IMG/VR virus record: IMGVR_UViG_3300036766_002289
Coordinates: 154,056-218,055 of that record
DNA: 64,000 nucleotides
From: a virus
Strand: one strand, 5' to 3'
The stretch's first letter is position 1; every line of letters starts with the position of its first letter. Position numbers and translations under genes: made by a program. Positions 32 to 61,027 of this stretch are shown one piece after another. Under the pieces are notes generated by a model that ran no database searches, was not told the DNA's origin, and saw only the letters and a list, made by a program, of their open reading frames with translations.

Positions 32-220
32 TTAGTGATCTTCTGAAATAGCGGAAACTGTTTCTAGCTCAGACCTTAAAACAGTTACGTTCTTGTCCGC
101 TTCGATGCCTACGCGGACCTTATTCTTGTTATCAATACGAACGATGATAATCCTTATGTCTTTTTGGCCAGGTTGCTTGATTACGATTGATTCGTCTCTT
201 TTTCGGCTTAATACCAACAT
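32..220 (-). CDS. csrA: CsrA/RsmE-type post-transcriptional regulator
   Basis: 62 aa. The protein opens with the family signature MLVLSRKRDESIVI and has the second signature VRVGIEADKNVTVLRSEL, which contains the RNA-contacting arginine of CsrA (family knowledge). CsrA dimers bind GGA in the loops of mRNA leaders, often over ribosome-binding sites, and block or stabilise messages. Length is normal for the family. The start is preceded on the minus strand by AAAGGA. It is transcribed away from the H1-like gene. A phage copy could retune host mRNA translation; that role is inference. Confidence 0.93.
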   Translation of the reverse strand: MLVLSRKRDESIVIKQPGQKDIRIIIVRIDNKNKVRVGIEADKNVTVLRSELETVSAISEDH

Positions 221-336: not shown

Positions 337-435
337 AAGATTGTCGGATATGGACGGCAACTGAGTAAGTGATTCAAGGCTCACACGATCAAGTTGCCAT
401 AAGTTACAATGAGCCTTATAGGTTCGGAGATTACT

Positions 436-861
436 ATGAGTCGTTTAGTTGAATTAGCGCAAAAGTTGGTTAAGCTCGAAGCCGAAACCACTTTCGTCAA
501 GGCGGAACTGGTTGCTGCCCTTAGCGCAAATGCTAAGGCGAAGGCCGTTGCTGCCCCTAAGAAGGCTGCAACTCGCAAGAAGGCTGCTAAGCCTGCTGCG
601 GACGCTACTAATGCCCCGCAAGAGGACAAGCCAAAGCGTGTTTCTCTCAAGGATGTGGTTCAGACCATTCTTGGCAAGAGTTCCGAAGGACTGGATTTAG
701 GCGGAATCGTCGCTGAAGTACATGAAATGGTCAAGCGTGGGGAGTACGCCACCAATGCTAAGAGTCTTTCCGCTGTTGTGTCCCAAGCGGTTAACCAACT
801 CAAGCAAGAAGTCAAGATCAAGCATGACCGCGAGAGCAAGAAGTATTCGCTGGCCAACTAA
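436..861 (+). CDS. histone H1-like / winged-helix DNA-binding protein
   Basis: 141 aa. A short N-terminal helix (about residues 1-25) leads into an Ala/Lys-rich linker with repeated KKAA and RKKAAK (about 30-60), then a compact domain (about 70-140) starting RVSLKDVVQTILGKSSEG and ending in a basic strand. This resembles the helix-turn-helix domain found behind H1-like tails in some bacteria. It probably coats or compacts DNA. The start at 436 is chosen because GGAG lies 7 nt upstream; an in-frame ATG at 409 lacks such a site. It has its own promoter and ends at a strong terminator. Exact function is inferred. Confidence 0.75.
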   Translation: MSRLVELAQKLVKLEAETTFVKAELVAALSANAKAKAVAAPKKAATRKKAAKPAADATNAPQEDKPKRVSLKDVVQTILGKSSEGLDLGGIVAEVHEMVKRGEYATNAKSLSAVVSQAVNQLKQEVKIKHDRESKKYSLAN

Positions 862-2256: not shown

Positions 2257-2820
2257 TTATAAATTTTTACTAGAAAGCATCAGATTTTTAACATTCTTGT
2301 TACAGAAACCGTGAGTGGTTCTGTTTATAAATTCATATACAACACCTGTCAATTCTGAAGGTTTTGTAAAAATCTGAGTAAGCGGTGGGTCTTCACATTT
2401 CAAAGGCTTTTCACTCGTAAATTCAGCATAGCCTTTATCTTTCCACTCTTTCATTTTAGCTTCAACATCTTCAACCTGATAAGCAATATGGTGAACACCC
2501 CCAATCCCACTTCTTGCAGCAACCCATTCCCCAACAATGCTTCCAGGTTCTCCGTCACTAACGAATATTTCAGGTGGTGTATGGTATTCTGGGAGCGAAG
2601 CCATTTGTTGTATAGCTAAGTCATCCCGACATGGCCCTTCAACAGACCACAAAGAATACGCAGTTTTCTCTGGTGGTTCCAGAGCAATGCAATCTGCGTG
2701 AGTTCCGTCATCAAAATCTATGGTAAATTCTTCCTGGATAGTGTATCCTAGTGCGTCGATAAAAAACTGAGCGGTCTTTTTTCTATCGGCAACTCTGTAT
2801 GCAATGTGGTCAAGGCGCAT
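2257..2820 (-). CDS. VOC-superfamily protein resembling 4-hydroxyphenylpyruvate dioxygenase
   Basis: 187 aa. Starts MRLDHIAYRVAD and repeats the pattern at GGVHHIAYQVED, giving two beta-alpha-beta modules. Likely metal ligands are His in each repeat and Glu in VVYEFINR. The tail GFCNKNVKNLMLS recalls the C-terminal helix of HPPD-type enzymes. HPPD itself is about 350 aa, so this is a half-size relative and the substrate cannot be assigned. AAGGAG precedes the start and a TATAAT box lies further upstream on the minus strand. Confidence 0.7.
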   Translation of the reverse strand: MRLDHIAYRVADRKKTAQFFIDALGYTIQEEFTIDFDDGTHADCIALEPPEKTAYSLWSVEGPCRDDLAIQQMASLPEYHTPPEIFVSDGEPGSIVGEWVAARSGIGGVHHIAYQVEDVEAKMKEWKDKGYAEFTSEKPLKCEDPPLTQIFTKPSELTGVVYEFINRTTHGFCNKNVKNLMLSSKNL

Positions 2821-2835
2821 ATATGTTCTCCTTGT

Positions 2836-2841
2836 ATTATA
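2836..2841 (-). promoter_or_regulatory. possible -10 box for the VOC gene
   Basis: TATAAT on the minus strand, about 16 nt before the start codon. The expected -35 position reads CATAAT, which is weak, so this is only a candidate. Confidence 0.35.
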
Positions 2842-2860
2842 CTAGTAATGGATCAAAATT

Positions 2861-3733
2861 ATGAATTTTAAATTAACTACTTTTTTAGGCGTGCCACTTA
2901 GATTAAATCTATTTACTTTACTATTTGTAGCCTATTTGTATTTTTCTACGCCGAGTCAACAAGTCATAGATGGAATGGTAATTCCACATCTTGACATTTT
3001 GGCGGCTGGTGGCTTTTGCATAATGCTATTTTTTGTAATTTTACATGAATATGGACATTGCTGGATGGCACAAAAAGTAGGGTGGAAAGTATATGATGTT
3101 ACGATATATCCTATTGGTGGCATAGCTAGCATGGATTTTAAATATAGCAACCCAATTCAAGAAATTCTTGTGATTGTTGCTGGACCTGCGGTCAACCTAA
3201 TACTAGCTGGAATTTTTTCAGTGTGCCTAATTTCTTCTTATCTGATAAACAAAGATGCGATTATACCCATAATTGTTTTCTTCATGCTTATGGTCATGAA
3301 TTTGTTCATCATGGGATTTAATCTTTTGCCCATTTACCCTATGGATGGTGGCAGGATTCTACGTGCATTACTTGCGTTTAAATTAGGACATAGAAAAGCA
3401 ACTTGGTGGGCAGTTAAAACTGGACAATGTTTAGGTGTTGGTCTCATTATTCTTGCGTTCTGTTTTAGTTATTATATTACTGGCATTATATTAGGATTTA
3501 TTTTAATTCAATCGCAAGCTGAAATCTCTGATTCAAACATTATCGTTGGTTTACAAAATATTCGAATAAATACAGCAAAAATACTAGATAAACCCGAACT
3601 AGCAAAAGCCACTTTACCTGAATTAATCTCAGCCTTGGAAGCTGTGAAAGATGAAGAAACAAAAGAAAAAATACCACTTGATGAATTATTACCGCTACTC
3701 AAGGATTTGCAGGCAGACGGCATAACCATTTGA
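2861..3733 (+). CDS. site-2 protease family (M50) membrane metalloprotease
   Basis: 290 aa with several hydrophobic segments. Zinc motif HEYGH lies in VILHEYGHCWMAQ (about residue 67), and the third ligand motif is in LLPIYPMDGGRILRAL (about 150-165), the usual M50 order. Such proteases cut substrates inside the membrane, for example anti-sigma factors. A C-terminal soluble tail of about 70 aa is Glu/Leu-rich. It lies between the minus-strand block and clpX; whether it serves phage sigma control is unknown. Confidence 0.85.
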   Translation: MNFKLTTFLGVPLRLNLFTLLFVAYLYFSTPSQQVIDGMVIPHLDILAAGGFCIMLFFVILHEYGHCWMAQKVGWKVYDVTIYPIGGIASMDFKYSNPIQEILVIVAGPAVNLILAGIFSVCLISSYLINKDAIIPIIVFFMLMVMNLFIMGFNLLPIYPMDGGRILRALLAFKLGHRKATWWAVKTGQCLGVGLIILAFCFSYYITGIILGFILIQSQAEISDSNIIVGLQNIRINTAKILDKPELAKATLPELISALEAVKDEETKEKIPLDELLPLLKDLQADGITI

Positions 3734-3757
3734 CAATTCAGGATTTCGTAGTATAGT
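3730..3757 (+). promoter_or_regulatory. sigma70-like promoter of clpX
   Basis: TTGACA (3730-3735), 16-bp spacer, TATAGT (3752-3757). The -35 box overlaps the stop of the preceding gene. A G-run follows at the expected start site. Confidence 0.8.
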
Positions 3758-3798: not shown

Positions 3799-5103
3799 AT
3801 GGGGACGCGAGGAAAAAGGAAAATTAGTCGTTATTGTGATTTTTGTTCAAGGTCAGAAGATGAGGCAGGACGCTTGGTGGAAGGTCCAGGTGGTCCTAAT
3901 CATGGGAAAATGGAAGGTGAATTTACATCCTACATCTGTGGGAAATGTCTGGATGCCTGTACACGGCTTCTACAAACCAAACCTGTTATCCATACCCCTA
4001 CCAAAATCCCTAATCCAAAAGAATTGGTAGCCAAACTCAATCAACATGTCATCGGCCAAGATCGTGCCAAGAAAGTCTTAGCCGTTGCTGTGTCTAACCA
4101 CTATAAGCGACTGATCGACGAAGATTACGTAAGACAAACTAAGAATTCTTTAGACCCCCTTGATTCCGTCGTTATTGATAAGAGCAATATCCTTATGCTC
4201 GGGCCTACAGGTTGTGGTAAAACCTTATTGTGCCAAACCTTAGCAACCTTACTTGACGTTCCTTTTGCCATTGGTGACGCAACTACTTTGACGGAAGCAG
4301 GTTACGTTGGCGAAGACGTTGAAAACCTGTTGCTTCGTTTGATCCATGCTGCCGATTTTGATATTGAGAAGGCTCAAACTGGCATCATTTATATTGATGA
4401 AATTGATAAGATCGGCAAGACTAGCCAGAATGTCTCTATTACGCGAGATGTTTCTGGTGAAGGTGTTCAGCAAGCCTTACTTAAGATGCTTGAAGGAACA
4501 ATTGCCAACGTACCACCAACTGGTGGCCGTAAGCATCCTGAGCAACAGTACTTGCAAATTGACACTACTAATATCTTATTCATCTGTGGTGGTGCGTTCG
4601 TTGGGCTGGAAGATATTGTGGGGCAAAGACTTGGGAAGAAAAGCATTGGATTCGGTGTTACCCTAGAAGATCATGATTACGATGAGAAAAAGAAGCGTGA
4701 TTGGTTACTGGCTCGCACAACTCCAGATGATTTGATTCATTTTGGGTTAATTCCTGAATTGGTAGGACGTATGCCAGTTATTGCCCCATTGAACGAATTG
4801 AATGAAGAGTCTTTGATTAAGGTTCTTACTGAGCCTAAGAGCGCATTGCTCAAGCAATATGCTAAGTTGTTTCGCTATAACAACGCAAAGCTCGAATTCT
4901 CGGAAGGGGCAATTCGAGAAATTGCAAAAAAAGCTATCAAGCTTAATACTGGTGCCAGAGCATTACGTGGGGTCGTTGAAGACTTAATGCTTGAATGGCA
5001 GTATGAATTGGAAGATGGTAAGGGGCAGACTTACATTGTTACTGAGGAAGTAGTCAAGGGCGAAAAACCTTTGGTGGCCGAAGCAACTAAGGAAGCTGCA
5101 TAG
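3799..5103 (+). CDS. clpX: ATP-dependent Clp protease ATP-binding subunit ClpX
   Basis: 434 aa, full length. Zinc-binding domain with CDFC and CGKC (residues 13-50). Walker A GPTGCGKT near residue 135, pore loop GYVG, Walker B IYIDEID, RKH loop in GGRKHPEQ, and sensor 2 GARALRG. The ClpP-docking IGF tripeptide is present at residues 283-285 (SIGFG). All machine parts known in cellular ClpX are intact, so it should unfold proteins and can probably feed host ClpP. No clpP is seen here. AAGGAG precedes the start. The stop codon UAG is the first base triplet of a repeated 17-nt element. Confidence 0.95.
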
Positions 5104-5117
5104 CTTAGTTGTACCAG
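5101..5117 (+). repeat. TAGCTTAGTTGTACCAG element, copy 1
   Basis: Exact 17-nt element starting with the UAG stop of clpX. Four more copies lie at 26271, 44794, 45631 and 48186, all at stop codons. Confidence 0.9.
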
Positions 5118-5123
5118 TGAATC

Positions 5124-5229
5124 TTGCATTGGCTTGGGTACAAACGGTTTATGGTATAGGGCGAAAGCCTACCGTTCTAGTGGCTGTAAACGCTAGATAT
5201 TGCACTTAGGCCAATGCAATTTTTATTTT
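5124..5229 (+). ncRNA. structured RNA element between clpX and a phosphoesterase gene
   Basis: A closing helix pairs TTGCATTGGC (5124-5133) perfectly with 5210-5219 and can extend by five more wobble-rich pairs. Inside are two hairpins: ACGGT/ACCGT (5144-5148/5171-5175) capped by GGGC-GAAA-GCCT with a GNRA tetraloop, and CTAGTG/CGCTAG (5177-5182/5191-5196). A T-rich run follows, then the GGAG of the next gene. It could be a riboswitch, an mRNA processing or decay element, or a complex terminator. No known class was recognised. Confidence 0.65.
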
Positions 5230-5239
5230 GGAGTTTACT

Positions 5240-5896
5240 ATGAAGATTTGTGCTATTTCTGACCAGCACGGCAATTTGCCAAAAATTCCTTCTTGCGACC
5301 TTTTCCTTATCGCAGGCGATATTTGTCCAGCCACCAACCATAGTGTAGATTTTCAGGAATATTGGTTAGAAACCCAATTCAAGAATTGGTTAAAGGATGT
5401 TGATGCCAAGGAAAAGGTTTATATCTGCGGCAACCATGATTTCTTTTTCGAGAAAGCTTCAAAAAATAGGATTCAAAAAGCTTTAGAGAAGATTCCTGGT
5501 ATTTACCTTCAAGACTCTAGCACAGAATTTGATGGCTTAAATATTTACGGAACACCTTGGCAACCATACTTTTTCGATTGGGCATTTAACCTTTATGAGA
5601 ATGATTTAAAGAAAAAATGGGAATTAATTCCTAAGAACACTGATGTTCTTATTGTGCATGGTCCGCCTAGCACCTACGGTGATTATGCACCGCGTCCAAA
5701 AGGTAAAGGTGGGGAGCATACAGGTTCGCCTTCTCTACTGGGAAAAATTAAGGAAATTGAGCCGAAGCTCTGCGTTTTCGGTCACATCCACGAGGGACGT
5801 GGAGAGTGGGACTTAGACAAAACTAAGTTGGCCAATGTTACCATCTTAGATGGTAAGTATCAGATGGTTCATGAACCCTGGATTTACAACTTATAA
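5240..5896 (+). CDS. calcineurin-like metallophosphoesterase
   Basis: 218 aa. Metal motifs in order: DQHG (variant of DxH), GDIC, GNHD, VHGPP and GHIHEGRG, as in small bacterial and eukaryotic MPPED-type phosphodiesterases. The substrate is unknown. GGAG 7 nt upstream fixes the start at 5240. It follows the structured RNA, which may control it. Confidence 0.85.
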   Translation: MKICAISDQHGNLPKIPSCDLFLIAGDICPATNHSVDFQEYWLETQFKNWLKDVDAKEKVYICGNHDFFFEKASKNRIQKALEKIPGIYLQDSSTEFDGLNIYGTPWQPYFFDWAFNLYENDLKKKWELIPKNTDVLIVHGPPSTYGDYAPRPKGKGGEHTGSPSLLGKIKEIEPKLCVFGHIHEGRGEWDLDKTKLANVTILDGKYQMVHEPWIYNL

Positions 5897-7896: not shown

Positions 7897-9528
7897 ATGG
7901 CTAAATTAGAAAAGAACGAGTATCCCCGTAATTCTTCGGCAGATGATTTTCAGTGTTTTGGACCGCCAGCAACAGAAGACGGTCAGTTTGACACATGTAA
8001 AATCGCTGACCTTGGCTGCTTTACCCAAGACGGTAAAGACAGTAATAAGTATTACCATGCTGCTGTAGTTCAGCATAAAAAGACTAAAGCATGGTTTGTA
8101 TATTTTCAATGGGGTCGCACAGGAGCAACCAATCCCACATTTCAATTCGTTGAATGTGGTGGCGAATCCGATGCACAACGCACTTTTGCCGCACAACTCC
8201 ATGATAAAAACGATAAACGTGGTCAATGGACTACTGTAGCTGGAATCCGCACGCTTCAAGCCAAACCTAATAAGGATTGTTATCTAGTCCGTGCTATGGC
8301 AACTCGTTCAGTCGGCTTACCAGACGCTAAAACCATTAAGGTTAATGAAGGTGCAAAAGTTACTGCCGCACCTACCAGCAAATCTGATTCAAAGATTGAC
8401 AATCATACATTGCGTTTAATGCGGGACTTGAACGTGGCAACAGTGTCTTATACTCGTGGTGTTATGGCAGATGATTCTCTACCTACACAAAAGTCTATTG
8501 ATGAAGCACGTCAGATTCTCCAAGAAGCGCAGAAGCGACTTGTGGTTGTTGGTAACAACGTAAATCATCAAGTAGCCGATAGTGATTTGAATCAACTCAC
8601 AAGGCTGATGTATAGCCGTATTCCTAAGAAAAAGGCTTTACATTGTGCGGCTCATGAGTGGATTCTGAATAAGGACAATATTTTTTCTTGGACGGCGGAC
8701 TTAGACGCATTCGAATCAGCCCTTTACGTAACTGACATTGAAGATTCCAAGCAGACTGAAGATGTGTTTGCTGGTATGCCAATTACTATGGAATGGGTCG
8801 ATCCCACTTCTATTGCTGGAAAATTTGCATATAATTGGTGGCCGAAAGCAACTGCAAATCGGCACGGTGGTCTTGGTAAGATGACAATTAAAAATCTTTG
8901 GCGTGTCCAACGCCGTGGCGATGGGCACGGTGGTCTTGGTAAGATGACAATTAAAAATCTTTGGCGTGTCCAACGCCGTGGCGATGACACGAAGCTTTAT
9001 AGCTGCCAAGATTCGGTATTAAAGGAAAAACCTTCTATTAAGGAACGTCCTTTATTCCAACCCGAACGTTCCGATTTGCAGGACAATTCATTGATTAAGA
9101 AGTATACGGACACCAATACTTCTCTTCTATTTCATGGCACTCGCTCCGTTAATGTTCCTGGTATTCTTCGTGAAAACCTACGTCTTCCAAAGCAATTGGT
9201 TGGTGTTGTTATCACTGGTGCCATGTTCGGTCCTGGTATTTATTGGGCTGACGATTGGAAAAAGAGCGCTGGTTACACCTCATTAAGGGGTTCTTATTGG
9301 TCGTCTGGTGATGGAAGTGTCAAGAATCGTGACGCCTTCATGTTTGCTGGCGATGTTGTTCTTGGTAATCCTTATGTAGCACCATATTCTGGTGGTTATA
9401 CGTCACCTCCTAAAGGTCATCATAGTGTCTATGGTAAGGCTGGAAAGAGTGGCGTTCAGAATAATGAATTCATTATTTACGATACTAAACAGTATCAGCT
9501 TCGTTATTTAATCGAATTTGCAGCATAA
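7897..9528 (+). CDS. PARP-type ADP-ribosyltransferase with WGR domain
   Basis: 543 aa. WGR domain with YFQWGRTGA (about residues 70-78), a helical regulatory region (about 165-300), and the PARP catalytic domain from about 330. The H-Y-E triad is present: H413 in FHGTR, Y449 in GIYWAD, E524 in QNNEFIIY, so poly- or mono-ADP-ribosylation using NAD+ is expected. Residues about 322-363 hold a perfect 21-aa tandem duplication covering the first strand of the catalytic domain. Eraser genes lie at 12692, 32361 and 52390. Its own promoter precedes it. Confidence 0.93.
   Translation: MAKLEKNEYPRNSSADDFQCFGPPATEDGQFDTCKIADLGCFTQDGKDSNKYYHAAVVQHKKTKAWFVYFQWGRTGATNPTFQFVECGGESDAQRTFAAQLHDKNDKRGQWTTVAGIRTLQAKPNKDCYLVRAMATRSVGLPDAKTIKVNEGAKVTAAPTSKSDSKIDNHTLRLMRDLNVATVSYTRGVMADDSLPTQKSIDEARQILQEAQKRLVVVGNNVNHQVADSDLNQLTRLMYSRIPKKKALHCAAHEWILNKDNIFSWTADLDAFESALYVTDIEDSKQTEDVFAGMPITMEWVDPTSIAGKFAYNWWPKATANRHGGLGKMTIKNLWRVQRRGDGHGGLGKMTIKNLWRVQRRGDDTKLYSCQDSVLKEKPSIKERPLFQPERSDLQDNSLIKKYTDTNTSLLFHGTRSVNVPGILRENLRLPKQLVGVVITGAMFGPGIYWADDWKKSAGYTSLRGSYWSSGDGSVKNRDAFMFAGDVVLGNPYVAPYSGGYTSPPKGHHSVYGKAGKSGVQNNEFIIYDTKQYQLRYLIEFAA
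8861..8986 (+). repeat. perfect 63-bp tandem duplication inside the PARP gene
   Basis: Units 8861-8923 and 8924-8986 are identical at every base and keep the reading frame. The encoded unit includes KNLWRVQRRGD, which normally occurs once in PARP catalytic domains. Confidence 0.97.
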
Positions 9529-12691: not shown

Positions 12692-13675
12692 ATGATTACC
12701 AGAGATAAAGTTCGTGGTATGTTCTTAGGCGTTGCCATTGGGGATTCTTTTGGAATGCCTTTCGAAAGCAAGAAGTTTGAAGATGTTAAAGCCCTAAAAA
12801 GAACTAATACTTATCGAAGTAGTAATCGTGGTAAGAAGGGCAGTTGGACTGACGATACACAATTAACGATTGCTACAGCATTGGCCATGCTTGAATCAGG
12901 TGATTTCAACATGGACAACATTGCTGCTTGGCATGTCAAAGCTTATAAAGCTTCGACTTCAGGGTGGGGAGGCACGACTAGGGATGCTGTTAAAAAACTC
13001 TCTGAAGGAACACATTGGTCAGAATCTGGTAAATTTGTAGGACAAAATAATAGGGGATTTGGCAATGGTGTAGTGATGAAAGCAGCACCATTAGCTGCAT
13101 ACTTTGCTCTTGCCAATGACGACTTGGATTATGACAATTCCATTTGTGATTTTACAATGATGACCCACCAAACAAGTGTGGCTGTTAGTTCTTGTTATGC
13201 CCATGTAGAAGCTCTAATGTATTGTTTGCGAGAAACAATTGATAGCTTCCGCAGTAGAGAATTTATTGAGGCGATAGTGGAGTCCAGTACGATTGGTGCC
13301 GCTTATTTCCCAGAAACTTTCAAGGATGATATAACCACTAAGTTAGAATCTATAAGAGAAATATACAGTATTCCAGATTTACTTTTTGATGACGGTTATT
13401 TAGTCAGCGAATTTGGCGGCGGTTCTTGTTATGTTTATGATTCTTTACCATTTTCTTATGCATTTTTCCTACGTGGTCCATTCAGTATTGAGAGCATGTA
13501 TGATGTTGCATATGCTGGCGGTGACTCTGATACAAATGCCTCCATCGTTGCAAGCATGATCGGCGCAATCTGTGGAACGAAAGTTTTCCCAAAAACTCTG
13601 GTAGAAGGATTATCTGCAAAAAATCAAATTTTGAGAATAGCCGACCTGTTTTATGAAAAGTTCTTTACAAATTGA
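12692..13675 (+). CDS. ADP-ribosylglycohydrolase (ADPRH/DraG family), copy 1
   Basis: 327 aa. Metal-binding motifs GSWTDDTQL (about residue 50) and YAGGDSDTNASI (about 275) supply the dinuclear Mg ligands of the family. It hydrolyses ADP-ribose from proteins or small molecules. It lies 3.2 kb downstream of the PARP gene on the same strand. A second copy is at 32361; the two are divergent. Confidence 0.9.
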   Translation: MITRDKVRGMFLGVAIGDSFGMPFESKKFEDVKALKRTNTYRSSNRGKKGSWTDDTQLTIATALAMLESGDFNMDNIAAWHVKAYKASTSGWGGTTRDAVKKLSEGTHWSESGKFVGQNNRGFGNGVVMKAAPLAAYFALANDDLDYDNSICDFTMMTHQTSVAVSSCYAHVEALMYCLRETIDSFRSREFIEAIVESSTIGAAYFPETFKDDITTKLESIREIYSIPDLLFDDGYLVSEFGGGSCYVYDSLPFSYAFFLRGPFSIESMYDVAYAGGDSDTNASIVASMIGAICGTKVFPKTLVEGLSAKNQILRIADLFYEKFFTN

Positions 13676-16451: not shown

Positions 16452-16457
16452 TTGTAT

Positions 16458-16530
16458 GCTCTTGTAGCTCAATGGGAGAGCGACGAACTCTAAATTCGAT
16501 TGGTTGAGGGTTCGAATCCCTCCAAGAGCG
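16458..16530 (+). tRNA. suppressor tRNA, anticodon CUA (reads UAG)
   Basis: 73 nt. Acceptor stem GCTCTTG (16458-16464) pairs fully with CAAGAGC (16523-16529); discriminator G. D-arm GCTC-AATGGGA-GAGC, T-arm GAGGG-TTCGAAT-CCCTC. The anticodon stem CGAA/TTCG encloses the loop CTCTAAA, with U33, anticodon CUA (16490-16492) and A37; the outermost pair 27-43 is A-A. CCA is not encoded. The amino acid is unknown; G73 fits several, including Gln. Confidence 0.87.
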
Positions 16531-16532
16531 TT

Positions 16533-32109: not shown

Positions 32110-32364
32110 ATGGCTGGATATCATCTGAATGACATTCCCCGTGGCGAATACGGTGAGCTTTCTAAGGTAATTGAAGAAGCTTTAGAGCTAAAAGACGCTA
32201 TGGAACAAGGGCAGAAATTGATGTGTCTTATTGAGCTTGCCGATATACTCGGGGCCATCGAAGGATATTTAGAAAAATATTATGAAGGCAAGATTACTGT
32301 TGATGATCTTTTTAACATGTCCTATGCTACCAAAAGAGCTTTTGAGTCAGGATATAGAAAATGA
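32110..32364 (+). CDS. MazG-like NTP pyrophosphohydrolase
   Basis: 84 aa. GELSKVIEEALELKDAM and IELADILGAIEGYL supply the ExxE...ExxD metal motifs of all-alpha NTP pyrophosphatases. These hydrolyse NTPs or alarmone-like nucleotides, and phage copies can change host (p)ppGpp or dNTP balance. Coupled by ATGA to the second ADP-ribosylglycohydrolase. Confidence 0.8.
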   Translation: MAGYHLNDIPRGEYGELSKVIEEALELKDAMEQGQKLMCLIELADILGAIEGYLEKYYEGKITVDDLFNMSYATKRAFESGYRK

Positions 32365-33254
32365 GTATTGAAGATAAGAAACGTGGAGCATTCTGGGGCT
32401 TAATTATCGGGGACGCTCTTGGGGCACCCGTAGAATTTAAAATGCCTGGTGAATTTGTTCCAGTAACAGATTACCAGAGTGGTGGCCCACATAGCCTTAA
32501 TAAGGGCGAATGGACTGATGATACAAGTCTTGCTCTTGCTCTTGCTGATAGTCTGGCCAATGGCTGGAATACTAAAGACCAACTTGACAAGTATTGTAGC
32601 TGGTATGAAGAAGGCAAGTACTCCGTCAATGGTTGGTGTTTTGATATCGGTGGCACTACAAAACATGCCTTGGAAAACTATAGGGACAGTGGTAATCCAG
32701 AAACTTGTGGGCTAGCCGATGATGATTATTCAGGGAATGGTTCGATTATGAGATTGGCACCAGTGCCAATTAAATATTCAGAATTGTTTTTTGATCTAGA
32801 TGAACTCATCAGATTAGCAGAAGAATCTAGTGCTACAACTCATGCAAGTAAGAAATGTAGAGATTGTTGTGCATACCTAGCCACATTAATAGCTGGATTA
32901 ATCAATGGAATTGATAGGGAAATCTTACTGAATGACCCTTATTATATTCCACCAAAAGTATGTACAGCCGTAAGACTAGTCGCAGAAGGTAGTTACCGCA
33001 AAAACAAGGTCAAAGGCAGTGGTTATGTAGTAGAAAGCTTGGAAGCTGCTTTATGGGCTTTTCACAAAGCTGAGAATTTCAGGAAAGCTGTCTTGGCTGC
33101 GGTTAATCTAGGAGATGATGCGGACACTACGGCGGCGGTCTGTGGGCAGTTGGCTGGGGCTTATTGGGGGTTTGAAGCTATTCCAGAGGAATGGCGTATT
33201 AATTTAGCTAAAAATGATTTAATAGAAGGCTATTTTAATGCCCTGATAAAATAA
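32361..33254 (+). CDS. ADP-ribosylglycohydrolase (ADPRH/DraG family), copy 2
   Basis: 297 aa. GEWTDDTSLALAL (about residue 47), FDIGGTTKHAL, GNGSIMRLAPV and NLGDDADTTAAVCGQLAG (about 252) are the full set of family motifs, including Mg ligands. It is closer to the classic bacterial family pattern than copy 1 at 12692. Two erasers with one PARP suggest different substrates or timing. Confidence 0.93.
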   Translation: MSIEDKKRGAFWGLIIGDALGAPVEFKMPGEFVPVTDYQSGGPHSLNKGEWTDDTSLALALADSLANGWNTKDQLDKYCSWYEEGKYSVNGWCFDIGGTTKHALENYRDSGNPETCGLADDDYSGNGSIMRLAPVPIKYSELFFDLDELIRLAEESSATTHASKKCRDCCAYLATLIAGLINGIDREILLNDPYYIPPKVCTAVRLVAEGSYRKNKVKGSGYVVESLEAALWAFHKAENFRKAVLAAVNLGDDADTTAAVCGQLAGAYWGFEAIPEEWRINLAKNDLIEGYFNALIK

Positions 33255-52054: not shown

Positions 52055-52393
52055 ATGAAGCAGGGTTGGCTAGGTAGACAACTGGAAAAGGCACATGAAA
52101 CAATTCAATCTCTTCCATCTTGGATGAGAAGTAATCAAGGTGATCGTCCTATGAACATTGCTGATTTGGCAGTTAACGATTATTTTATCTGCTATCCATC
52201 AGAAGACTCGACAAGTTATTTTGTATTCAAAAAGTTCGACAAGAATTCGACTGAACAGTTATCTGGCAATCTTGCTCTTGGTTGCAATGATGCTAACCGT
52301 ATATTATTATTTGGCATTAATGCTGTAAGAGTTCAAGATAACTTGGGCGTGTCTATTGGGGATGATGAATCAGTTATAAAGGTGGAACTATGA
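52055..52393 (+). CDS. hypothetical protein
   Basis: 112 aa. A helical start, then a small beta domain (DLAVNDYFICYPSEDSTSYF). GGAG upstream. ATGA overlap with the macro-domain gene, so the two are co-translated. Confidence 0.55.
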   Translation: MKQGWLGRQLEKAHETIQSLPSWMRSNQGDRPMNIADLAVNDYFICYPSEDSTSYFVFKKFDKNSTEQLSGNLALGCNDANRILLFGINAVRVQDNLGVSIGDDESVIKVEL

Positions 52394-52842
52394 TCGAATT
52401 TAAAACAGGCAATATTTTCGAGTCTGACTGCGAAGCTATCACCAACACCGTGAATTGCGTGGGAATTATGGGTGGAGGCTTGGCAAAAGCATTCAAAAAG
52501 AACTACCCAGAAATGTTCAGGGAATATTCTGATGTTTGCTGCAAATGTGAACTTTGGCCAGGCGTAATGCACATTTGGGAAAACCCTAATGGCACACCAA
52601 AATACATTGTTAATTTTCCAACCAAAGACGATTGGCGAAATCCTTCTGATATAGGTTTCATTATTGATGGTTTAGTGGCACTTAAAGATGAAATCATCAA
52701 AAGGGATATCAAATCAATTGCCATCCCTAGTTTGGGTTGTGGTTTAGGTGGCTTATCCTACGTGGACGTTAAAAAAGAAATTGAAAAATTCGCGGTCACA
52801 TTACCTAATATTAAAATTATTGTTTATGAGCCATTAAGTTAA
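52390..52842 (+). CDS. macro domain protein (DarG/TARG1-like ADP-ribose hydrolase or reader)
   Basis: 150 aa. FKTGNIFESDCEAITNTVNC, GIMGGGLAKAFKKNYP, NFPTKDDWRNPS and IPSLGCGLGGLSYVDV match the macro-domain branch that includes DarG and TARG1, which remove ADP-ribose from DNA bases or acidic residues. The Lys in ..NFPTK and the GLGG loop are kept. With the PARP and two glycohydrolases it completes an ADP-ribose signalling set. Confidence 0.9.
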   Translation: MIEFKTGNIFESDCEAITNTVNCVGIMGGGLAKAFKKNYPEMFREYSDVCCKCELWPGVMHIWENPNGTPKYIVNFPTKDDWRNPSDIGFIIDGLVALKDEIIKRDIKSIAIPSLGCGLGGLSYVDVKKEIEKFAVTLPNIKIIVYEPLS

Positions 52843-57704: not shown

Positions 57705-58029
57705 AGCGTTGGCAGACAAATTGGAACAAGAAGAAAAAATGGTCAAGGTAGGCTATGCAAAAGAAGATTTATATAATTTTGACGGACCTGGACCTGGAAT
57801 TACTTATCATAGGGGATGGGGTGATTTCTGGCTACAGACAGGGAAAAAGAAAAACCTACTTATAGAAGACTTCATTAGTTCCTTTGCCCTTGTTATCCCT
57901 AAAGGCACTAAGTTTGTATGTTATATTAGGAATGGCAAAGAACTGTGGTATGATGATATCAACTACGGGATAGAAAACATGGATTCTAAATGGGCAGAAA
58001 AATACTTGGAGAATATAACTAATGTTTGA
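57685..58029 (+). CDS. hypothetical protein
   Basis: 114 aa. Starts with a short helix (MTPKELRALADKLEQEE) found at the head of many phage proteins; beta-rich afterwards. TAATG overlap with the next gene. Confidence 0.55.
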   Translation: MTPKELRALADKLEQEEKMVKVGYAKEDLYNFDGPGPGITYHRGWGDFWLQTGKKKNLLIEDFISSFALVIPKGTKFVCYIRNGKELWYDDINYGIENMDSKWAEKYLENITNV

Positions 58030-58651
58030 ATTATTTACTGATAGAGCTAGAAAAGTGGTCACGTTAGCCAGAGAAGAAGCTTTCAAATTTAATTTTGAAT
58101 ATGTGGGTACTGAACATATTCTAGCAGGCTTACTCAAAGAGAACACTGGTGTCGCACACCATGTCCTTGAAGCACTTGGAATTAGTATTGGCAAAATTCA
58201 CTTGGAAATAGAAAAAATTGTTCAACCCCCTGGTGATGTTGAAGTTGATAGAGAAAGACTTGCCTTCTCGCCAAGAGCAAGGAACGTTTTCACTTATGCT
58301 GTGGATGAGGCTAAATTATTAGGGCATACATACATTGGCACCGAACATATTCTGCTAGGTTTGTTAAGAGAAGATAGCAGTACTGCTGGACAAATCCTAC
58401 TAAACTTAGGCATTAATCTAAAAGAAACTCGTGCTGCCGTCTTAGAACTACTAGGCTTTACTGACGAACGGTATGAATTTGAACAAGTTTATAGTAATGG
58501 TGGCGACCTTTACAATGTAGTAAAGATTTTGTCCAATGGCGTTAAGGAACATATGGCTTTTTATGACAACAAAAATAAGAAGATAAGTGTTCCAAAAGCT
58601 GTAGACTTGGATGATTTGGGTAAGATTATTAACGCTATAAGGAACCTATGA
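58022..58651 (+). CDS. stand-alone ClpC N-terminal (Clp_N) domain protein
   Basis: 209 aa. Two Clp_N repeats: FTDRARKVVTLAREEAFKF...YVGTEHILAGLLKE (about 5-65) and FSPRARNVFTYAVDEAKLL...YIGTEHILLGLLRE (about 80-145). No AAA+ module follows; instead about 60 unrelated residues. In ClpC this domain binds adaptors and phospho-arginine substrates. A free copy could bind host adaptors as a decoy or bring phage clients to ClpC. Confidence 0.88.
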   Translation: MFELFTDRARKVVTLAREEAFKFNFEYVGTEHILAGLLKENTGVAHHVLEALGISIGKIHLEIEKIVQPPGDVEVDRERLAFSPRARNVFTYAVDEAKLLGHTYIGTEHILLGLLREDSSTAGQILLNLGINLKETRAAVLELLGFTDERYEFEQVYSNGGDLYNVVKILSNGVKEHMAFYDNKNKKISVPKAVDLDDLGKIINAIRNL

Positions 58652-58908: not shown

Positions 58909-59342
58909 ATTGTAAGCAATTATTGGACCTAATAGCTGGAGAATTAGATTTTCAAATTAAAATTATGTTGCCAGATGGCAAATTTGTCCCAGAACATTTC
59001 CATATTACAGAAATAGGCATTGTAGAAAAAAATTTCATTGACTGTGGCGGAATAAAAAGATCACAAACTTGCGTAGTATTACAAGTTTGGGTTGCGCATG
59101 ATACAGAACACCGTCTTACAAGGTTGAAATTAAATAAAATTTTATCTATGGTAACATCACTAAGTCAACCACATCATAGATTTTACGCTGATGCATATCC
59201 TATTGAAATTGAATACGGCGCAGACCTAGTTTCACAGTATCCAGTAAAAGATGTTGAACTAACAGATGATAATGAATTATTATTCGTTCTTGGTGGCAAG
59301 CGAACAGAATGCCTGGCCCCTGATAAATGTGGATGTGCATGA
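58905..59342 (+). CDS. DUF6428-like protein
   Basis: 145 aa. MLPDGKFVPEHFHITEIG and FIDCGGIKRSQTCVVLQVW, then HRLTRLKLNKIL, match the DUF6428 pattern. Found in bacteria and phages, function unknown. Ends with CLAPDKCGC. Confidence 0.7.
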   Translation: MNCKQLLDLIAGELDFQIKIMLPDGKFVPEHFHITEIGIVEKNFIDCGGIKRSQTCVVLQVWVAHDTEHRLTRLKLNKILSMVTSLSQPHHRFYADAYPIEIEYGADLVSQYPVKDVELTDDNELLFVLGGKRTECLAPDKCGCA

Positions 59343-59551
59343 GGTTTAACATGATAAGAAACCCCGCTATTTGCCTTTTCTGTGATGGCAGAGGTCGCAT
59401 CCTAACGATTTGGAAAAAGATAAAGCCGATGGGATTAATGTCCATTGTTTTGCGAGACAACCCAGAGGTAATTAATTGTCCTTTGGGATGTGCAGTTAAT
59501 GGAGAGCCACTAGACTTAACAAGCCAATCCTGGGAACATAAACCACAATGA
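59339..59551 (+). CDS. small hypothetical protein
   Basis: 70 aa with CLFCDGRGR near the N-terminus and CPLGC later, like a DnaJ-type zinc turn. ATGA overlap on both ends. Confidence 0.5.
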   Translation: MRFNMIRNPAICLFCDGRGRILTIWKKIKPMGLMSIVLRDNPEVINCPLGCAVNGEPLDLTSQSWEHKPQ

Positions 59552-59913
59552 TAGTAGTGCCAGCTAAAGTGATGCCTAGCCAAATACACGAATACGGTGT
59601 ATTTGCCATTTCCCCTATAATTAAAGGGACCGTCATATGGTTTTACTGTTATCCACCTGACTTTCGTATCAAAGTTATTCCACCAGAAATGCAATTCTTT
59701 GCTGATCGTTACGCTTATAAGCCAATAGGTAAAGATTATTATGAATTTGCTGGTGATATAGCAATGTATATTAATCATTCATCAAGTCCTAACATTTCTC
59801 ATCTTGACGACGGCAGAAGTATTGCTAATAAAGACATTGCAATAGGCGAAGAATTAACGTATAATTACTTTGAGTTTGATAGTGACCCAGAAAGTGGTGG
59901 TAAACTAATATGA
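59548..59913 (+). CDS. SET-domain protein methyltransferase
   Basis: 121 aa, a minimal SET domain. IHEYGVFAISPIIKGTVIW opens the fold, DIAMYINHSSSPNI gives the NHS cofactor-binding motif, and GEELTYNYFEF gives the ELxYDY-type catalytic Tyr region. No pre- or post-SET zinc parts. It should transfer methyl from SAM to a lysine. The H1-like protein at 436 is a natural candidate substrate, which is inference. Confidence 0.85.
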   Translation: MIVVPAKVMPSQIHEYGVFAISPIIKGTVIWFYCYPPDFRIKVIPPEMQFFADRYAYKPIGKDYYEFAGDIAMYINHSSSPNISHLDDGRSIANKDIAIGEELTYNYFEFDSDPESGGKLI

Positions 59914-60104
59914 GTCTTAAAGATGCTGCACATAAACTACACAAACAACTAAGTATAAAGCCTTGGTTTGCGATGCTTGGTGAAGGTAAGGATAAAATCA
60001 TAGTTTATACTAAAAAGAAAATTAAACAGGATATATTCGAATTTGAAGGCTTTGAAGTGATATATCGCTACATGGGCAAAGTTAAACCAGCAGGTACATC
60101 ATGA
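59910..60104 (+). CDS. small basic hypothetical protein
   Basis: 64 aa. Basic, strand-rich second half (KIIVYTKKKIKQDIFEFEG). Typical short phage gene, ATGA overlaps. Not recognised. Confidence 0.5.
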   Translation: MSLKDAAHKLHKQLSIKPWFAMLGEGKDKIIVYTKKKIKQDIFEFEGFEVIYRYMGKVKPAGTS

Positions 60105-60502
60105 AACGTAAAGTAACCAGAAGCAAAGTTTACAGAGTTATAAGAAAACTACTTAAAACCTCTACCCCTGAAGACATAGCCAGCGACTTCCTTGAGCAAG
60201 TTACATTCGAGAAGTTATTAAAAATCTTCTGTAATCAGTGTGTATTCAAATCTCACTCAGATCATAATAAAGCCAGACAAAAAACATGGTATGGAATGGC
60301 TCGCCTGTTCCATCGTGCAATGGATGAATTAAAGCTTGAAAAAGAAAAGAAATCTATCTTCAAGATATCTAAGTGCGAAGTCTACCAGTGTAAGTGCAAA
60401 AAGAAATTCTATGTTGACCCATTGAGTGAGAAGAATTGCATATTTGAAGTGGATCGTGGAGTAGTAGTGGTGACTTGTCCGCAATGTGGAAAATCGGAGT
60501 GA
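60101..60502 (+). CDS. hypothetical protein with C-terminal zinc module
   Basis: 133 aa. Basic helical start, C-terminal CKCKKKF and TCPQCGKSE zinc pair. Not recognised. Confidence 0.55.
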   Translation: MKRKVTRSKVYRVIRKLLKTSTPEDIASDFLEQVTFEKLLKIFCNQCVFKSHSDHNKARQKTWYGMARLFHRAMDELKLEKEKKSIFKISKCEVYQCKCKKKFYVDPLSEKNCIFEVDRGVVVVTCPQCGKSE

Positions 60503-60535: not shown

Positions 60536-61027
60536 ATGATTTATTCAGAATATAAAGCATTGCAGAAACTTATACCAACAGGGGCAGATATCGAAGGTCC
60601 ATTCTTCAAGCCCAATTCTCCACTATTGTCCACGTTAACCGTTGAATACACTTTAACATTATCTGGAACGGTTAAAGATACTGATGGTAATTTATTAACA
60701 GGTATTAAACTAGATTTTTGGCAAGCTGACGCTGCTGGTATCTATGACAATGATGGTTTTTATCTGCGTGGCCATCAATTGTCGGATCAAGATGGTAAGT
60801 ATAGCCTAAATACAATTAGACCAGGACATTATCCCATTGGACCAAATGAATATCGTTGCTCACATATCCATGTTAAATTGTCAGCGAATGGTTATAAATC
60901 ATTAACAACACAACTCTACTTTACTGATGATAGTTTTGACGCTCAAGACCATTGGTTTGATGCAAAACGTTGTTTTAAACCTGATAATATATTTGATTTT
61001 GTGCTAGAAAAACTACCTACTGCATGA
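60536..61027 (+). CDS. intradiol ring-cleavage dioxygenase-like protein
   Basis: 163 aa. LDFWQADAAGIYDNDG holds the first Tyr ligand, PGHYPIGPNEYRCSHIHVKL holds the second Tyr and the His-x-His pair, so the non-haem Fe(III) site of protocatechuate/catechol dioxygenases is complete. Shorter than catabolic subunits (about 200-240 aa). AGGAGG upstream. Could act on phenolics or lignin-like compounds; target unknown. Confidence 0.85.
   Translation: MIYSEYKALQKLIPTGADIEGPFFKPNSPLLSTLTVEYTLTLSGTVKDTDGNLLTGIKLDFWQADAAGIYDNDGFYLRGHQLSDQDGKYSLNTIRPGHYPIGPNEYRCSHIHVKLSANGYKSLTTQLYFTDDSFDAQDHWFDAKRCFKPDNIFDFVLEKLPTA

Follow-up and report, generated by a model that had tools for sequence, protein, structure and literature searches.

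A predicted protein-lysine methyltransferase of the short SET type encoded by a large T4-like phage

Introduction

What does a phage methylate with a SET-domain protein of its own, and could a histone-like protein encoded in the same genome be the target? These questions arise from a window of 64,000 nucleotides (positions 154056-218055 of a 390,039-bp IMG/VR record), in which a preliminary description recognized a minimal SET methyltransferase gene together with a gene for a Lys-rich, H1-like protein, and suggested that lysine methylation by a phage of its own chromatin-like protein would be new. Here we describe the SET gene, its surroundings and its relatives, and weigh the possible targets. 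The features concerned are collected in Table 1.

Table 1. Positions of the SET gene, its key codons, its downstream neighbours and the H1-like gene in the window
Feature	Position	Strand	Basis or remark
121-aa single-domain SET protein, predicted protein-lysine N-methyltransferase	59548..59913	+	Pfam PF00856; profile of relatives
G17 codon, second Gly of the SET "GxG"	59596..59598	+	nearly invariant in 71-sequence alignment
N76-H77 codons, NHSxxPN motif, putative SAM-binding/pseudoknot core	59773..59778	+	invariant in 71 relatives (NH within search patterns)
E101-E102-L-T-Y-N-Y107 codons, GEELTxxY motif, predicted catalytic Tyr Y107	59848..59868	+	
64-aa ORF over the SET stop (ATGA)	59910..60104	+	no Pfam match
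133-aa Lys-rich (16.5%), Cys-containing protein in the SET gene run	60101..60502	+	no confident family
141-aa H1-like protein	436..861 (409..861 from upstream ATG)	+	53% identity to LR756511 protein

Results

The phage and the surroundings of the SET gene

Elsewhere the record encodes a T4-like Gp23 capsid protein (3.8e-88), a Gp20 portal protein (6.2e-76), a terminase large subunit, baseplate wedge, RIIA/RIIB and a DNA ligase. Because T4-like capsid, portal, terminase and baseplate genes stand in one record, its source is, by gene content, a large T4-like tailed phage, and eukaryotic contamination is ruled out by the same genes. Of the phage records, LR756511 (595 kb) is the closest relative that we found; it has a WGR-PARP protein 70% identical to that of the window and has the CsrA/H1-like neighbourhood in common with it.

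The SET gene lies within a dense run of small plus-strand genes and has ATGA overlaps at both of its ends (59548-59551 and 59910-59913). The 64-aa ORF that begins in the second overlap is probably translationally coupled to the SET gene; it was not found at other SET loci. When the genes flanking SET loci of phages and cells were clustered, no neighbour of the window's gene recurred at any other locus. In this phage the SET gene thus behaves like an accessory one. A conserved neighbour was thereby rejected as the substrate: the recurrent neighbours belong mostly to a marine cyanophage group, with smaller sets elsewhere, and the window shares none of them.

Upstream of the SET gene, a 209-aa protein has ClpA/C-type N-terminal repeats without an ATPase domain (58022-58651, plus strand; PF02861, 2.7e-28) and may serve as a decoy for, or an adaptor to, the host Clp protease; a full-length ClpX-like protein is encoded at 3799-5103. 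Downstream, an intradiol dioxygenase-like protein occurs in the phage gene run (60536-61027, plus strand; PF00775, 1e-22). PADLOC defence-system models matched none of the SET, H1-like, Clp_N or dioxygenase-like proteins. The only tRNA of the window (16457-16531, plus strand) has a CTA anticodon of the amber suppressor type and is called Pyl by ARAGORN. General recoding of TAG through this tRNA is ruled out, since TAG is the stop of 77 of the approximately 390 called ORFs in the record, about a fifth; the SET gene itself contains no in-frame TAG.

The SET protein and its motifs

The gene runs from an ATG to a TGA and encodes 121 residues with a pI of 4.9. PF00856 matches the product with E = 1e-10 and 42.4 bits, the curated Pfam cut-off being 22.4, and the alignment covers residues 16-107 and profile positions 2-104 of 105. 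In a search of the whole 390-kb record this was the sole SET (41.8 bits, no internal stop). A chance ORF is ruled out by the Pfam score together with the conserved motifs, and a 192-aa antisense ORF (59200-59778) is taken to be a shadow of the gene.

Two of the motifs are complete: D70-IAMYI-N76-H77-SSSPN82 and G100-E-E102-L-T-Y-N-Y107. With a profile score above the cut-off over most of its length, the N-H of NHSxxPN (N76, H77) and the Tyr of GEELTxxY (Y107), the protein belongs to the SET-domain family. The first motif, H14-E-Y-G17-V-F-A, has ExG in place of the usual GxG and keeps the second Gly, so that the view that 121 residues hold all SET signatures stands for the family match, NHSxxPN and GEELTxxY, but not for the first Gly of GxG. 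In our alignment SET1 carries NxG where the phage protein carries ExG; SET1 is an active enzyme. The Cys-rich post-SET motif is absent from the 121-aa ORF. From the family match, the retained catalytic residues and the T4-like record, we agree with the preliminary description that this phage has a gene for a predicted minimal SET methyltransferase.

A widespread family of short SET proteins

A search of IMG/VR with the single sequence found no close relatives, and tblastn matched two of 50,697 phage records, Synechococcus phage SynMITS9220M01 and LR756504 (636 kb). A profile built from these two SETs and the window protein showed that at least 80 IMG/VR contigs encode the short SET type, and a second profile confirmed 315 stretches encoding it in bacterial and archaeal genome contigs. 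The cellular SETs, for which the best 80 of the 315 stretches were fetched, come from Pseudomonadota, Gemmatimonadota, Spirochaetota, Nitrospinota, Myxococcota, Patescibacteria, archaea and others. By blastp, bacterial sequences come closest to the window protein, at 40-41% identity.

We aligned 71 diverse members that are 27-41% identical to the window protein. PF00856 matches 71 of 71, whereas every other Pfam family occurs in at most two. N76, H77, E102 and Y107 are invariant across these relatives; for N-H this is partly a product of selection, as NH was within the search patterns, while E102 and Y107 were outside them. The window protein retains 12 of the 14 nearly invariant positions. 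It falls within the short bacterial type, taken as a single SET of ~120-150 aa with an N-terminal MLxVKT..S.I.G.G.FA...IPKGT.IW block and no post-SET: M1, S11, I24 and W31 are kept, T6 and G15 are changed. Against solved histone-lysine methyltransferases, the profile of the 71 members matched the MLL4/KMT2D SET best (4.5e-17).

On the tree, phage and cellular sequences intermix with at least six label changes; the phage SETs may have one origin. The window protein forms a long branch (2.1 changes per column) for which the tree gives no firm placement. Marine cyanophage SETs form a separate clade (support 100/99). At marine T4-like cyanophage loci such as L002, L060 and L070, behind the SET gene stand a conserved 240-aa gene, whose purM label in MT408532 is probably wrong, and baseplate wedge genes; this fixed position may point to a function or a timing connected with virion assembly. 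At L048 (~4986-5376), and also at L050, L051, L052 and L082, one additional base in a G-run splits a SET homologue into two frames, which could reflect a disrupted gene, a site of slippage or an assembly error common to the five contigs. At L021 (~3100-3740) and related loci, a second SET-like protein (GRGVFARSLINEGELIVDW...) directly follows the first as a tandem pair.

SET genes of several subtypes also occur among large phages. Six of 12 records of 385-735 kb carry a SET above the Pfam cut-off; counting LR756501 and LR756503, which agree in length and match position, as one phage, and leaving aside LR756504 and LR756511, which were picked for their matches, 3 of 9 distinct phages in this small and non-random sample have one. 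Short SETs thus recur as accessory genes in large phages and in many cyanophages, and the window's SET is ordinary in kind, another member of a widespread phage and cellular family.

The H1-like protein and its distribution

The preliminary description was also right that the window encodes a Lys-rich, H1-like protein. The ORF is real, its product has a pI of 9.8, and its 30-aa K+A stretch is the richest among the 551 ORFs of the record. Its Lys/Ala-rich linker (APKKAATRKKAAKPAA) joins a short N-terminal segment to a winged-helix-like C-terminal domain. The Pfam models for linker histone, Hc1 and HC2 gave no match even at E <= 1; the best Pfam hits are sub-threshold, an NFRKB winged helix (0.0021) followed by DUF7801 (0.034), and no solved relative was found. 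No relatives were found in IMG/VR, and we saw the family solely in the window's record and in LR756511. A CsrA gene (32-220, minus strand) adjoins the H1-like gene divergently. LR756511 has the same divergent arrangement plus a second winged-helix-like gene in tandem, these genes lying at 2405-2602 (-), 2797-3228 (+) and 3302-3688 (+) of its locus L101.

The proposed pairing of enzyme and substrate fared less well. Between the SET and H1-like genes lie 59 kb. The H1-like family occurs in 0 of 30 other SET-carrying phage records, a set that includes several fragments or near-copies as well as records of 190 kb, 231 kb and 636 kb, and it is absent from all SET-positive large phages tested save LR756511. 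LR756511 in turn has a SET of a different type only (173 aa, at another place). Neither consistent linkage nor consistent co-occurrence was found, and the distribution thus lends no support to a dedicated enzyme-substrate pair.

Discussion

Based on our findings, we propose that this accessory gene encodes an active protein-lysine methyltransferase of the short bacterial type that acts in infection and whose target would more likely be a host protein than the H1-like protein. We give this reading a probability of about 0.68, judging from a full-length SET signature, the N-H and catalytic Tyr positions, the phage context and a family wide in phages and bacteria. The protein would bind S-adenosylmethionine through a core formed by N76-H77 and G17, the latter presumably part of the SAM-binding loop, and would move methyl groups to a lysine of some protein that is produced or encountered in the course of infection; Y107 would be the catalytic or orienting Tyr. 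Since there is no post-SET zinc site, its own short C-terminal tail would have to close the lysine channel. As substrate, a host protein that serves in translation, transcription or the structure of the nucleoid would be the likeliest class; the argument is one from distribution, because differing phages keep a SET without a shared neighbour or partner.

The architecture resembles most that of the short bacterial and archaeal SETs (PF00856; "SET domain-containing protein" at NCBI, ~120-150 aa), which likewise have a single SET and no post-SET. They share with the window protein the layout MLxVKTxxxxSxIxGxGLFA...IPKGTxIW...DxARFxNHS...GEELTxDY, at up to 41% identity. The window protein differs in being phage-encoded and more diverged, in its ExG and in having Met in place of Arg before YINHS. 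LR756504, SynMITS9220M01 and its marine relatives, also tailed phages, have the same short type, the SETs of the two named phages being 32-36% identical to the window protein; the marine SETs carry an additional CDLDRIYQAYYVNHS insert and keep to a conserved place on the baseplate side, neither of which the window shares. Another likeness, by annotation alone, is ORF62 of Stenotrophomonas phage Ps15, already annotated as a SET domain protein of unknown function (PMC9025141). Among viral minimal SETs with a target in the host, the closest precedent is vSET of the chlorella virus PBCV-1, a 119-aa protein that methylates H3K27 and is packaged in the virion (PMC3946773). It is nearly the size of the window protein, to which it gives a weak phmmer match from NH to GEELTxxY (E = 0.27), but its host is a eukaryote with histones and its sequence is no closer to the window protein than other SETs are.

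The expectation of novelty does not hold for either of its parts. Phage SETs are widespread, as the IMG/VR contigs, SynMITS9220M01 and half of the sampled large-phage records show, and Ps15 had been annotated earlier. Chromatin-protein methylation also has prokaryotic precedents, cpnSET of C. pneumoniae acting on Hc1 and Go1-SET on MC1-alpha (PMC3980110). What the literature seems to lack is function: in full-text articles we found a phage SET protein only as an annotated domain without an activity test, and the main text of "Clades of huge phages" makes no mention of SET domains (PMC7162821). Phage protein-lysine methylation thus appears little studied, and because short SET genes are recurrent, identifying the target of one member would be informative for many phages.

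Two alternatives to an enzyme with a host target seem to us about equally improbable. In the first, the enzyme would act on another phage protein, for instance a component of the virion or baseplate, or the Lys-rich protein encoded two genes downstream. The latter shares the gene run of the SET gene and, from its composition and position, would be a nearer candidate substrate than the H1-like protein, and the cyanophage SET gene adjoins the conserved 240-aa gene and the baseplate wedge genes. However, the cyanophage SETs are a clade of their own whose neighbours were not found at the window locus, and proximity of phage genes often reflects expression timing only.

In the second, the protein would no longer be an active methyltransferase but a diverging remnant or a binding-only protein. 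The long branch, together with loss of the first Gly of GxG and of the conserved T6, makes reduced or altered activity possible, and the homologue split in five related contigs suggests that loss may occur in the family. On the other hand, the window's gene is open over its full length and coupled to both neighbours by ATGA overlaps; the protein keeps N-H, the catalytic Tyr and most of the nearly invariant positions, and the NxG of active SET1 lies at the very place of its ExG. These points argue for an active enzyme.

Slightly less probable again is the reading that first drew attention to this locus, in which the SET protein would methylate the phage's own H1-like protein and thereby tune its binding to, or compaction of, phage or host DNA, much as cpnSET acts on chlamydial Hc1. 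Both genes are in one genome, the H1-like protein with its K+A-rich stretch being basic and the SET protein acidic, and LR756511 likewise combines an H1-like protein with a SET, though of the other type. Since cpnSET and Go1-SET act on H1-like or chromatin proteins of their own organisms, the idea would be, by analogy, neither far-fetched nor categorically new; these are cellular enzymes, likened here by description only, and NUE of C. trachomatis failed to methylate Hc1 (PMC3980110). Against it stand the 59 kb between the genes and the absence of the H1-like family from the other SET-bearing records. Moreover, with a SET in about a third to half of the sampled large phages, co-occurrence of the two genes in one genome is expected by chance. 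Modification of a chromatin protein by a phage would matter if true, its sole support being that both genes are in one genome.

The window also encodes an ADP-ribosylation kit on the plus strand (7897-9528, 12692-13675, 32361-33254 and 52390-52842). It consists of the WGR+PARP protein (PF00644, 6.8e-22; PF05406, 1.9e-8), two ADP-ribosylglycohydrolases (PF03747, 1.6e-47 and 4e-75) and a macrodomain protein (PF01661, 7e-17). It is very improbable that these genes form a histone-code-like set in which the H1-like protein would be methylated by the phage's SET and perhaps ADP-ribosylated by the WGR-PARP, with the glycohydrolases and macrodomain as erasers or readers; such a set, if real, would switch between replicating and packaged DNA or reprogramme the host nucleoid. 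The WGR-PARP, besides its counterpart in LR756511, is related to annotated PARPs of Klebsiella and Xanthomonas phages, and the kit is perhaps more unusual than the SET gene.
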